Of a stretch of 64,000 nt of DNA, positions 34,055-60,228 are shown one piece after another (the first letter of the stretch is position 1; every line of letters begins with the position of its first letter). Source of the DNA: Erysipelotrichaceae bacterium (GTDB lineage: Bacteria; Bacillota_I; Bacilli_A; Erysipelotrichales; Erysipelotrichaceae); assembly GCA_030694975.1 (NCBI GenBank), contig JAUYTU010000035.1:124001-188000 (forward strand). Direction: 5' to 3'. Both the position numbers and the translations under genes were made by a program. The notes under the pieces were generated by a model. It was given only the letters and a program-made list of their open reading frames with translations. It did no database searches and was not told the origin of the DNA.

Positions 34055-34067
34055 ACAACCAAGGTTT

Positions 34068-34223
34068 TTGTAGCGCCACTTCAGTAACTGAAGGAGTGTT
34101 TCAAGTGTTTCCTGAAACCCCACAAGCGGCCATGCCTTGCCATCTTGTTCGGCGGTGATTGCCTTTCACTGAAATCATCGCCCGCCGGCTCCTTCAGCTA
34201 CTTTTCTGCACCGCTACCTCTAA
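34068..34223 (-). ncRNA. Lysine riboswitch (L box)
   Basis: The minus-strand leader carries the L-box core: TAGAGG at its 5' end, AGTAG, then GTGAAAGG ... CACCGCCGAA, the conserved junction segments of the lysine aptamer. The closing helix P1 can pair 34212-34217 with 34070-34075 (GTAGCG with CGCTAC). The order and spacing match RF00168 as I know it. It precedes a polar amino-acid ABC transporter, an expected target. Confidence 0.9.
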
Positions 34224-34241
34224 TCTTTTTTATTCTCGTAA

Positions 34242-37004: not shown

Positions 37005-37011
37005 AACCCTC

Positions 37012-37238
37012 ATAGCAAAGAAAAAGAGTAGTAACACGAAACTCTTCAAACCAGCGACTTGTGAATTGGTGAAAGACAAGCTGAAGAAAGTGTGAACGTG
37101 CTTTGGAGCCGGACTATCGAAATTTGAGATAGTTCCCGTAGATCGGCGTTAACGATTTGAGTGCATAAAGGGATTCCTTTATGAATTAAGGTGGTACCGC
37201 GTTAACACGTCCTTATTTTTAAAATAAGGACGTTTTTT
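37012..37238 (+). ncRNA. T-box riboswitch leader (candidate arginine specifier)
   Basis: The invariant T-box AAGGTGGTACCGCG is at 37188-37201, followed by a terminator stem CGTCCTTATTT / AAATAAGGACG with a T run (37208-37238). Stem I shows AGTA (37027-37030), the GGTGAAAG segment near 37068 and the GAA that follows the second strand of the specifier loop (37094-37096). The next three bases are CGT (37097-37099) followed by a purine, so the best reading is an Arg codon; GTG (Val) one base on is the alternative. It controls an amino-acid ABC transporter. Confidence 0.92.
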
Positions 37239-57643: not shown

Positions 57644-58198
57644 CTATTTACTAACGAAGCGATCGATAACCGTTCGCAACTTAGGATAAAGCAATGAGAA
57701 TACCAGACCGACAACCGCACCTTTTAACAGATTGAACGGTGTAAATGTCGTTACGATCAGATTCCAGCGAATCTCCTCTGGAATACCGTACAGTGGAAAG
57801 GTAATGTAAAGATTGACGACGACCATAACCAAGGTTGCCAATAAGGTACCTACCGCTATGCCTAACCAACCGAATTTTTTTGCATTGGTGCGGTATGCGA
57901 ATAGAATGGGCAACATCAGCGCAACTCCGGCAAAGAAATTCGCAATTTCTCCAGATGCCGCCGGTTCTTTTGAGATTATCAGAAGATGTAGGATGTTTTT
58001 AAAAAGCTGAACAAGAATGCCACCGACAGGACCTACAGCAATTCCGGTCAAAATTGCCGGGATGTCGCTGAAATCAATCTTCAAATATGGTGCCACAGGA
58101 AATAAGAAAGCCACCGGAACCTCTAGATAGTAGAGTGCGAAGGCCAGACCGGTCATAATGCCGATCAATGCATAATAGCGGGTAGTCGTTTTTTTCAT
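57644..58198 (-). CDS. ribU: ECF transporter riboflavin-binding S component RibU
   Basis: A 184-residue integral membrane protein with about six hydrophobic segments. RibU landmarks are FLFPVAPYLKIDFSDIPAIL in the first loop and the SKEPAASGEIANFFAGVA segment. It captures riboflavin and works with a shared EcfAA'T module that is not in the window. ATG 58198 follows AGGAGG. The FMN riboswitch directly upstream confirms the substrate class. Confidence 0.95.
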   Translation of the reverse strand: MKKTTTRYYALIGIMTGLAFALYYLEVPVAFLFPVAPYLKIDFSDIPAILTGIAVGPVGGILVQLFKNILHLLIISKEPAASGEIANFFAGVALMLPILFAYRTNAKKFGWLGIAVGTLLATLVMVVVNLYITFPLYGIPEEIRWNLIVTTFTPFNLLKGAVVGLVFSLLYPKLRTVIDRFVSK

Positions 58199-58213
58199 TT
58201 TTTTACCTCCTAA

Positions 58214-58238
58214 CAAAAAAAACCGGACTCATACCCGG
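58214..58238 (-). terminator. Expression-platform terminator of the FMN riboswitch
   Basis: In the minus-strand RNA CCGGGU-AUGA-GUCCGG, closed with two G-U pairs, followed by eight U residues, just before the ribU ribosome site. Confidence 0.82.
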
Positions 58239-58262
58239 GCTAGACAGCTAAAAAAATTAGCG

Positions 58263-58374
58263 TCACTTCTTTCATCCAGACTTTACAGTCGCCTTCGGAA
58301 TTGAACCGAATCATGCCAAAATACTGGCTCGCGGGGTTTACCGCCGGTCGGTAATTTCACCCTGCCCTGAAGTA
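58263..58374 (-). ncRNA. FMN riboswitch (RFN element)
   Basis: The minus strand carries the RFN core in order: CTTCAGGGCAGGGTGAAATT, the ACCGGCGGT arm, AGCCAG, the TTCGGTTCAATTCCGAA arm, and finally GACTGTAAAGTCTGGATG followed by GAAGTG. The closing helix pairs ACTTC with GAAGT. It would shut off ribU when FMN is abundant. Confidence 0.96.
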
Positions 58375-58384
58375 TTACGTTGTC

Positions 58385-58585: not shown

Positions 58586-59143
58586 TTATGCCCGAGAAGA
58601 GTACTTCCCATCCGCCGTAGTAACTAAGACCATTTCATCTTGCCCGATAAACAAGGGCACTTTAACCTGTAAACCCGTTTCCAAAATAGCATTTTTCGAA
58701 GCACTGGTCGCAGTGTCACCTTTAACTGCGGGTTCACACTCAACAATCTGAAGTGCGACTTTATCCGGAAGAATAACGCCTAGAATCTCACCTTCGAATG
58801 TTGTAATGTTCACATTGTCGTTTGGCTTTAAGAAATTCATCTCCCATTTCAAATTTTCTTTTTGAATTTCAATTTGATCATAGGTATCTGTGTCCATAAA
58901 TACCAAAGCTTCACCCGCATCGTACAGATATTGCATTTCACGTTTATCGATGTGTGCAGGTTCTACCTTATCACCGCCGGTAAAAGAAATCTCCACAATC
59001 GCCTGCGAACGTAAATTTCTTACTTTTGCTTTTATGACCATCTGACGCATCGCTGTTTTATTATGTGATGCATCAATGACGACAAATATGTTACTTTCAT
59101 ACTGGAAAGTTATGCCGGGACGAAAATCATTTACTAAAATCAT
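58586..59143 (-). CDS. efp: Elongation factor P with atypical tip loop
   Basis: A 185-residue three-domain factor that rescues ribosomes stalled at polyproline. The fold is complete, from VNDFRPGITFQYE to the C-terminal GLQVKVPLFIGQDEMVLV. The domain I tip, usually PGKG with a modified lysine at position 32 in Bacillus, reads T30-A31-M32-R33 with no gap against Bacillus EF-P; the nearest lysine is K29. So the normal acceptor lysine is absent and rescue must work unmodified, through Arg33 or Lys29, or by another route. It follows a Xaa-Pro peptidase gene, the usual neighbour. Confidence 0.93.
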   Translation of the reverse strand: MILVNDFRPGITFQYESNIFVVIDASHNKTAMRQMVIKAKVRNLRSQAIVEISFTGGDKVEPAHIDKREMQYLYDAGEALVFMDTDTYDQIEIQKENLKWEMNFLKPNDNVNITTFEGEILGVILPDKVALQIVECEPAVKGDTATSASKNAILETGLQVKVPLFIGQDEMVLVTTADGKYSSRA

Positions 59144-59154
59144 TCGTTCACCTC

Positions 59155-60228
59155 CTACCGTATATATTTTAACTGCTTGTCCGATTTTGTCAATCGAATA
59201 CAGCCATCTTTGGTAATAAGGATATCATCTTCGATGCGAACACCACCTAAACCAGGAATATATATTCCAGGTTCAATGGTAACAACCATACCTTCCTTCA
59301 ATACTTCCGTACTCAGTTGGTTCAGACGTGGTGCTTCATGAATCAAAACACCCAAACCATGTCCTGTTCCATGTTGAAAGTATTCACCATATCCGGCTTC
59401 AGTAATGATATCACGCGCAATCTTATCAACTTCTCTTGTTGCAACATCGGGCTTGCAAGCCTCTAATGCACGGGTCTGAGCTTTGAGAACAATCTCATAG
59501 ATTTCTATAAGTCTTTTGTCAACTCCATGGCTCATTGCAAAGGTTCTGGTCAGATCCGAACAATAACCTTGATATACAGCGCCGAAATCGATCGTGACAA
59601 ATTCATTTTCTTCAATGATTTTGTCACTGGCAACTCCATGTGGCATAGCTCCTCGCCAGCCCGATGCTACGATCGTATTAAATGAGAAAGACTTTGCACC
59701 GAGTTGGCGTATTTTGTTATAGAGTAATAAATCAACTTCAGATTCACTCATCCCCGGTTTTATGACTTCCATGATGTATCCGATCGCTTCATCAGCAATA
59801 TCGGCAGCTTTCTGCATGATTTCAACTTCCTCAGGCAGTTTATATAATCGTAATTCACTCAAGTTCAAACCGATCAATTCTGCATGAACAGCTGATTTAA
59901 ACATCTCATGCTCGGCAACCGTCAGTTGGTCCTTCTCAAATCCTAAAGAGCCAATCTTCTGCGAATCAACGATTCCGTTAATTAGGTTCGTCACGGTATT
60001 GTCAATATCATCCGTTAACAAAACAATGGAAGATTCGCACTGACTCTTGGCCTGATCAATATAACGAAAATCCACCAGAATATACTGATCTTTTTCAGTT
60101 AACAACACTGTTGCGGTCGTACCGGTAAAGCCGGTTAAGTAATACTTGTTATGCGCAGATGTGACAAGTACGGCATGCGCGTCTTGATTTTGTGCGATTT
60201 CTAAACATTTTCTTGCTTTTATATTCAT
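59155..60228 (-). CDS. M24 family Xaa-Pro aminopeptidase / dipeptidase
   Basis: A 357-residue metallopeptidase releasing residues next to proline. After a creatinase-type N-terminal domain (about 1-130) comes the pita-bread catalytic domain with the five metal ligands: two Asp in TIDFGAVYQGYCSDLTRTF, His in GTGHGLGVLIHEAPR, and Glu in TIEPGIYIPG and in RIEDDILIT. The place directly upstream of efp matches Bacillus yqhT. It ends 11 bases before efp. Confidence 0.94.
   Translation of the reverse strand: MNIKARKCLEIAQNQDAHAVLVTSAHNKYYLTGFTGTTATVLLTEKDQYILVDFRYIDQAKSQCESSIVLLTDDIDNTVTNLINGIVDSQKIGSLGFEKDQLTVAEHEMFKSAVHAELIGLNLSELRLYKLPEEVEIMQKAADIADEAIGYIMEVIKPGMSESEVDLLLYNKIRQLGAKSFSFNTIVASGWRGAMPHGVASDKIIEENEFVTIDFGAVYQGYCSDLTRTFAMSHGVDKRLIEIYEIVLKAQTRALEACKPDVATREVDKIARDIITEAGYGEYFQHGTGHGLGVLIHEAPRLNQLSTEVLKEGMVVTIEPGIYIPGLGGVRIEDDILITKDGCIRLTKSDKQLKYIR

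Follow-up and report, generated by a model that had tools for sequence, protein, structure and literature searches.

The efp locus

The stretch of DNA analysed here (the window) comprises 64,000 nucleotides from an Erysipelotrichaceae bacterium and carries on its minus strand efp, the gene of elongation factor P (EF-P), at the position assigned by an earlier sequence-only reading (Table 1). A pepQ-like gene lies directly upstream of efp, with a spacing of about 12 bases, and is preceded by competence-type pseudopilin genes, the names of the latter being recognised from the translations. We take this order of pseudopilin genes, pepQ-like gene and efp to resemble the arrangement comG-yqhT-efp of Bacillus. 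The only RNA feature near efp is an ordinary FMN riboswitch just downstream, which belongs to the next gene. Farther away in the window, a T-box leader and a lysine riboswitch exceeded the Rfam gathering score.

Table 1. Features of the efp locus, other features of the window, and second efp loci in related genomes
Feature	Sequence	Positions	Strand	Basis or remark
efp (elongation factor P), 185 aa	window	58586..59143	minus	ORF and translation; ATG at 59143, stop at 58586
β3-β4 loop, residues 28-36 NKTAMRQMV, M32 and R33 in place of PGKG	window	59036..59062	minus	translation and gapless alignment
Candidate promoter TTGACA-16-TAAAAT	window	59193..59166	minus	at 3' end of pepQ-like gene; consensus scan only
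Ribosome-binding site GGAGG	window	within 59144..59193	minus	before efp start, after candidate promoter
Xaa-Pro peptidase gene (pepQ-like)	window	59155..60228	minus	ORF list; name recognised from translation
FMN riboswitch	window	58260-58378	minus	ahead of riboflavin-transporter-like gene
Riboflavin-transporter-like gene	window	57644-58216	minus	
T-box leader	window	37009-37217	plus	over Rfam gathering score
Lysine riboswitch	window	34063-34230	minus	over Rfam gathering score
PnuC-like transporter/K-tip EF-P/FabG-like SDR cassette	L166	7816-10433		
The same cassette	L167	8798-11445		
The same cassette	L171	8212-10868		
The same cassette	L173	7754-10380		
The same cassette	L176			

Pfam searches clearly indicate the three domains of EF-P in the encoded protein, namely the KOW-like, OB and C-terminal domains (PF08207, PF01132 and PF09285), with 55.8, 77.5 and 82.0 bits against cut-offs of 23, 27 and 25, and the NCBIfam equivalog model TIGR00038 "efp" was matched with 221.3 bits (cut-off 185.8). 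The models of the EfpL/YeiP proteins, NF003392 and TIGR02178, were matched far below their cut-offs (117.6 of 216 and 103.5 of 264 bits). AlphaFold 2 modelling with 41 sequences gave a pLDDT of 86.2 and a pTM score of 0.60; the first 12 solved structures listed as matches to the model are all EF-P or EfpL (Z-score 17–24 over 175–185 residues), and the predicted overall fold is that of solved EF-Ps (Z-score 20.5 to PDB code 1ueb and 19.7 to 6rk3, over 178–185 residues). Residues G142, T144, Y181 and R184 are invariant or nearly so in two EF-P alignments.

The genome containing the window (G000; 2.19 Mb, 99.6% complete) encodes one EF-P according to searches at both the domain and the protein level, and a second, canonical copy, which had been named as a finding that would speak against an EF-P lacking the usual acceptor, is absent from it. 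Among named relatives, the closest proteins are encoded in metagenome genomes of Erysipelotrichaceae (94–99% identity), followed by proteins with 78–83% identity and those of Holdemania (75–76%). As regards a phage origin, 15 records of phage collections match the window EF-P at less than 60% identity, and some of them are bacterial contigs.

The tip loop of the window EF-P

The tip loop reads H27-N28-K29-T30-A31-M32-R33-Q34-M35, in contrast to H-V-K-P-G-K-G of lysine-type EF-Ps. A phmmer search aligned residues 1–184 to the EF-P of Staphylococcus aureus (6rk3, 6rji) without gaps, so T30-A31-M32-R33 sits on P-G-K-G, as the sequence-only reading had it, and position 32, occupied by Met, is unable to carry a lysine or arginine modification. 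The likeness to the lysine-type EF-Ps of Bacillus subtilis and S. aureus is otherwise extensive and includes the three domains, K29, the GDT motif and the C-terminal Y..R, along with gene neighbours that recall Bacillus, but P30, G31, K32 and G33 of those proteins are T, A, M and R here. The window EF-P has M32 and T30 where the lysine type has a lysine tip with proline at −2, and Met32 followed by Arg33 where the EarP type has arginine at position 32. The lysine K29 is not peculiar to this protein, being invariant in an alignment of 34 sequences that includes lysine-tip EF-Ps.

The same loop was found in separate genomes of the genus, in the proteins that are 94–99% identical, and NKTAMR recurs in 59 sequences. 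The codons of N28, K29, T30, A31 and R33 vary freely among them (four alanine, four threonine and five arginine codons are used) and the residues are constant, which argues that these residues are held by selection. This recurrence with synonymous variation rules out sequencing error and chance as the source of the motif.

Distribution and origin of the loop

The set of relatives comprised 60 genomes (G000 and 59 others), and EF-P was found in 57; the three without a match were G001, G021 and G032, and G021 seems unreadable rather than simply devoid of EF-P, as it was also matchless for YmfI, EpmA, the ValS PPP motif, DHS, SDR and ABCF. Window-type (NK-type) loops were read in 51 of the 56 genomes having this type, with G042, G043, G049, G051 and G058 left out, and the tip lysine is absent in all 51. 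The forms of the loop are NKTAMRQM and close variants, NKTARSAM, NKTARAAAN, NKQGRLSG, NKTAMAKM and NKQARGAM. The NK-type is the only EF-P in 36 of the 57 EF-P-bearing genomes; 20 genomes of the 60 have both this and a lysine-tip EF-P (K-type), and a single genome, G044, has the K-type only.

A survey of the class covered 296 genomes and added 40 loops from other families; in most of these families the tip is a lysine. Non-lysine tips of the NKTAM form are present in families f8 and f19, and the small genomes of f5 and f16 encode SKSGRGQA, SKTGRQQG and SKQGRGQA; these two families are presumably Mycoplasma-like, because in-frame TGA codons are found in f5 and some f16 genes.

Phylogenetic analysis used 179 of 198 EF-P rows, 19 actinobacterial and other distant rows being left out. 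In a careful tree of 87 of these rows, calculated with the loop columns removed, 52 non-lysine (NK/SK-type) rows form one branch with a support of 100/99, which was recovered in every one of 200 bootstrap trees; the bootstrap itself had not fully converged. A quick tree of all 179 rows agrees with this, placing 113 non-lysine rows on one branch (SH-aLRT 99) next to two lysine-tip sequences of f10 and requiring a total of six switches from or to a lysine tip. Judging by the trees, the P-G-K-G loop was replaced once in this clade, and the loss of the lysine is old and common to a large group of relatives.

All 113 clade rows have K29 and none has P30; at the same time, a basic residue is present at positions 32–34 in every row, as R32 in 48, as M32-R33 in 60 and as M32-A33-K34 in five. 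None of the 48 R32 rows has a basic residue at position 33. The tree requires at least three exchanges between R32 and M32, which means that the compensation did not arise in a single event. The positive charge of the window EF-P has moved one place, to R33, and has not been lost. The interpretation offered by the sequence-only reading, an EF-P with an unmodified or differently modified tip, is partly supported: residue 32 cannot carry a lysine or arginine modification and there is no second EF-P. That reading had not foreseen that the loop is shared across a clade and arose once, nor the shift of the charge to R33, nor the separate lysine-tip EF-P with a reductase gene that about a third of the relatives possess.

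Modification enzymes and a proposed role of the basic residue

Searches for the known modification enzymes gave mainly negative results. Deoxyhypusine synthase (DHS, PF01916) was not found in any of the 60 genomes (control matches in seven), and no EpmA/GenX match exceeded the TIGR00462 cut-off in them, with controls over the cut-off in two; the best matches below it fall in frames of some 500 codons, as expected of a lysyl-tRNA synthetase in size. G000 also has no YmfI over the NF047420 cut-off of 238 bits, so that, of the genes proposed for inspection, ymfI and epmA are not represented there by a match over cut-off; in lacking such a YmfI match the genome differs from the 5-aminopentanol system of Bacillus. 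The best G000 match to the YmfI model, with 217.3 bits, is a FabG within a fatty-acid (fab) operon, which exceeds the FabG equivalog cut-off. The YmfI model was matched over cut-off, with 248–331 bits, in five of nine other genomes. One of the 60 genomes (G033) contains a match over the YmfI cut-off, with 239 against 238 bits, and this ORF adjoins FabH- and ACP-like ORFs and falls, in a tree, among further ORFs of that kind. No YnbB-family match was found within 539 kb of G000, a quarter of the genome, and the immediate neighbours of efp in the window include no gene resembling a modification enzyme. EarP was matched in none of the 60 genomes, a result to be read together with the equally matchless 14 control genomes.

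More than half of bacteria lack any known EF-P modification enzyme, as stated in the accessible text of PMC6544042, and, according to the available part of PMC4014445, Mollicutes retain EF-P without the enzymes of the E. coli type. In B. subtilis, a K32R variant of EF-P that is unmodified sustains swarming (PMC5885033), methionine is listed among the known tip residues in the accessible part of PMC11611912, and the same source reports R33 of EfpL to be unmodified by mass spectrometry. As regards the residue at −2, the accessible text of PMC6544042 describes Met tips as never occurring together with proline and arginine-type loops as going badly with it; it also reports that many loop changes lower the activity of the E. 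coli and Pseudomonas putida factors.

Taken together, these data make it probable that the window gene encodes a working EF-P that can dispense with tip modification and whose displaced Arg33 contacts the P-site tRNA. On this reading, a single exchange turned KPGKG into an arginine-type loop, (N/S)-K-(T/S/Q)-(A/G)-R, unaccompanied by any known arginine-modifying enzyme; in part of the clade, including G000, Met occupies position 32 and the basic residue follows at 33 (or 34). The protein would still dock between the P and E sites via its unchanged domains II and III, and the unmodified loop would aid peptide-bond formation, presumably also at polyproline sequences, with Arg33 touching the CCA end of the P-site tRNA; this role is modelled on the unmodified tip arginine of EfpL. 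The main reason to favour the action of a basic residue over an enzyme with an exact acceptor is that such a residue is kept at positions 32–34 and the loop residues are under selection.

Alternatively, an undescribed enzyme could modify Arg33 or K29, the modification site being displaced by one residue. The loop does resemble the Pseudomonas arginine type, in which EarP rhamnosylates the tip: the clade lacks proline at −2, K29 is followed by S/T, R32 completes a K-x-x-R pattern in 48 of the 113 members, similar to K29-S30-G31-R32-N33-S34-A35 of P. putida (PMC6544042), and NKTAMR is strictly conserved. However, the window EF-P has M32/R33, the clade sits among EF-Ps of Bacillota in trees that hold no Pseudomonas row, and, since EarP was not matched in the 60 genomes (nor in any control), the enzyme would have to be new. 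The replacement of R32 by M32-R33 or M32-A33-K34 in relatives would hardly be tolerable for a residue-specific enzyme, and the surroundings of efp in the window offer no candidate for one; a displaced modification site is unlikely on these grounds.

A comparison with EfpL (YeiP) of E. coli, the model for the proposed Arg33 contact, shows T-A-R of the R32 relatives in its loop as well (SPTARGAAT, PMC11611912), but the EfpL loop is longer than seven residues and the window loop aligns without gaps. The window EF-P is, moreover, the sole copy in its genome.

Polyproline demand

Valyl-tRNA synthetase (ValS) has its PPPNVTG motif in 53 of the 60 genomes, G000 among them, whatever the EF-P type, and this retained PPP indicates that EF-P function is still needed. 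Other stalling motifs are scarce. PPP does not occur in 443 sampled ORFs of G000 (539 kb, at least 150 codons each), compared to about six in shuffled proteins, and PP[PGDNEW] was seen 14 times against 50.3 expected from the shuffles. The latter set of motifs was picked from the literature after the first count and before the second, PPP alone being too rare. In seven pooled genomes of the order, 43 PP[PGDNEW] were seen against 136.8 expected (0.31), compared to 26 against 40.6 (0.64) in two Bacillales with a K-tip EF-P and YmfI; the binomial p is 0.006, with these two genomes as the only yardstick. Samples of efp flanks gave 13 against 69.8 expected in the family and 19 against 28.9 in K-tip Bacilli, but PPP alone runs the opposite way there, with six against 12.8 in the family and none against 4.7 in K-tip Bacilli.

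This scarcity may reflect weaker rescue, and it would be compatible with an EF-P that is feeble or has lost part of its activity. In that case, avoidance of strong stalling motifs would be an adaptation of the proteome, and ABCF proteins would take care of the remaining stalls; a protein with an ABCF C-terminal domain is present in G000. Against this, three genomes with the NK-type only and four with both types are equally depleted (0.31 and 0.32, p 1.0), so the presence of a K-type EF-P makes no visible difference, and the avoidance belongs to the order and separates the hypotheses poorly; nor did it prove usable as a marker of the K-type factor. Given also the conserved ValS motif and a loop under purifying selection, which a decaying loop would not be, a weakened factor seems rather improbable.

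A second, lysine-tip EF-P in relatives

The K-type EF-P (EF-P2) is encoded in 21 of the 60 genomes and is 34–40% identical to the window EF-P. The two are three-domain EF-Ps of the same families of bacteria, but EF-P2 forms a deep separate branch and has the loop HVKPGKGAA, found in all 17 proteins in which it was read; the remaining four (G043, G049, G052 and G056) were assigned by identity and an adjoining gene of a FabG-like short-chain reductase (SDR). This SDR gene directly follows EF-P2 in 17 of 17 and 14 of 14 loci of two overlapping sets, and a genome search found the SDR, with 65–100% identity, in exactly the 21 EF-P2 genomes of the 60. The only other match, with 44% identity, is in G053, a genome without a second EF-P. 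G000 has neither EF-P2 nor its SDR, and no SDR match was found in the examined flanks of 109 window-type loci, which include some repeated genomes and short flanks.

Most EF-P2 loci have a PnuC-like transporter gene (PF04973) upstream. A gene for a PF06838 protein, a family that we take to include YnbB, is near EF-P2 in all four loci covered far downstream and in seven of 14 with a view of about 0.7 kb, once on the transporter side; the view of the G044 locus ends just after the SDR gene. The SDR was rejected as a YmfI ortholog, scoring about 158–169 of the required 238 bits in most cases and forming its own starred tree branch that does not include the Terribacillus and Pontibacillus YmfI, and it would be YmfI-like in its presumed role only. 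Its linkage to EF-P2 makes the cassette look like a portable unit for K32 modification, because the 5-aminopentanol group on K32 of the B. subtilis factor strictly depends on ynbB, gsaB and ymfI (PMC5885033). A case from family f17 (G107), where EF-P2 is 60% identical and accompanied by the SDR, hints at transfer of the cassette.

Since roughly one relative in three also encodes a K-tip EF-P, the NK-type might cover only part of the task. A shift of the NK-type to other slow peptide bonds, with polyproline left to the K-type where present, would find support in the 20 genomes having both types, in the K-type as sole factor of G044 and in EfpL, described in the accessible part of PMC11611912 as a paralog that has a tip arginine and a distinct range of motifs, but it is highly improbable, as the NK-type stands alone in 36 genomes, ValS keeps its PPP regardless of EF-P type and G044 manages without the NK-type. 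The last case suggests that the two types are able to stand in for each other.

On the preferred reading of a factor active without tip modification, a wider scenario can be tentatively drawn. A branch of Bacillota and its small-genome relatives might have dropped tip modification in one step, while keeping one basic residue free to slide from position 32 to 34; roughly one in three of the relatives sampled might hold a self-contained EF-P2 cassette with its own 5-aminopentanol-like chemistry, based on a reductase not orthologous to YmfI, and either factor might serve as the sole EF-P. The literature searched contained no description of the loop of this clade, its lineage, its single origin or the EF-P2 cassette; the Met tip is already in print, as a residue count, and the lineage of the clade, its origin and the cassette appear new within that literature.

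The sole EF-P of a gut-type bacterium lacking a modifiable tip lysine bears on how the factor works without the usual chemical extension, and on the wider question of why EF-P needs such an extension and, in many bacteria, which one. A clade in which the lysine was lost once, R and M were switched repeatedly and genomes contain the new type alone, the old type alone or both makes this question accessible to comparison and swaps, and the EF-P2 cassette points to candidate lysine-modification enzymes outside Bacillus.

Other EF-Ps without a tip lysine

Several further EF-Ps depart from the lysine-type loop. The f9 proteins (L233, L236 and L239) have HVKSARSAA and that of one f17 genome (L224) has HVKSANSMA; in the quick tree, both losses of PGKG are separate from the main non-lysine clade. 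A third, very divergent EF-P-like protein (L071), about 23% identical and with the Asn tip KAGNGAG, is encoded in G027, which carries both other EF-P types beside it. Finally, a Zixibacteria record (L141) encodes an EF-P with the loop NARTAQRRAN, with Gln at the tip and no proline, and represents another lineage with an EF-P devoid of the tip lysine.
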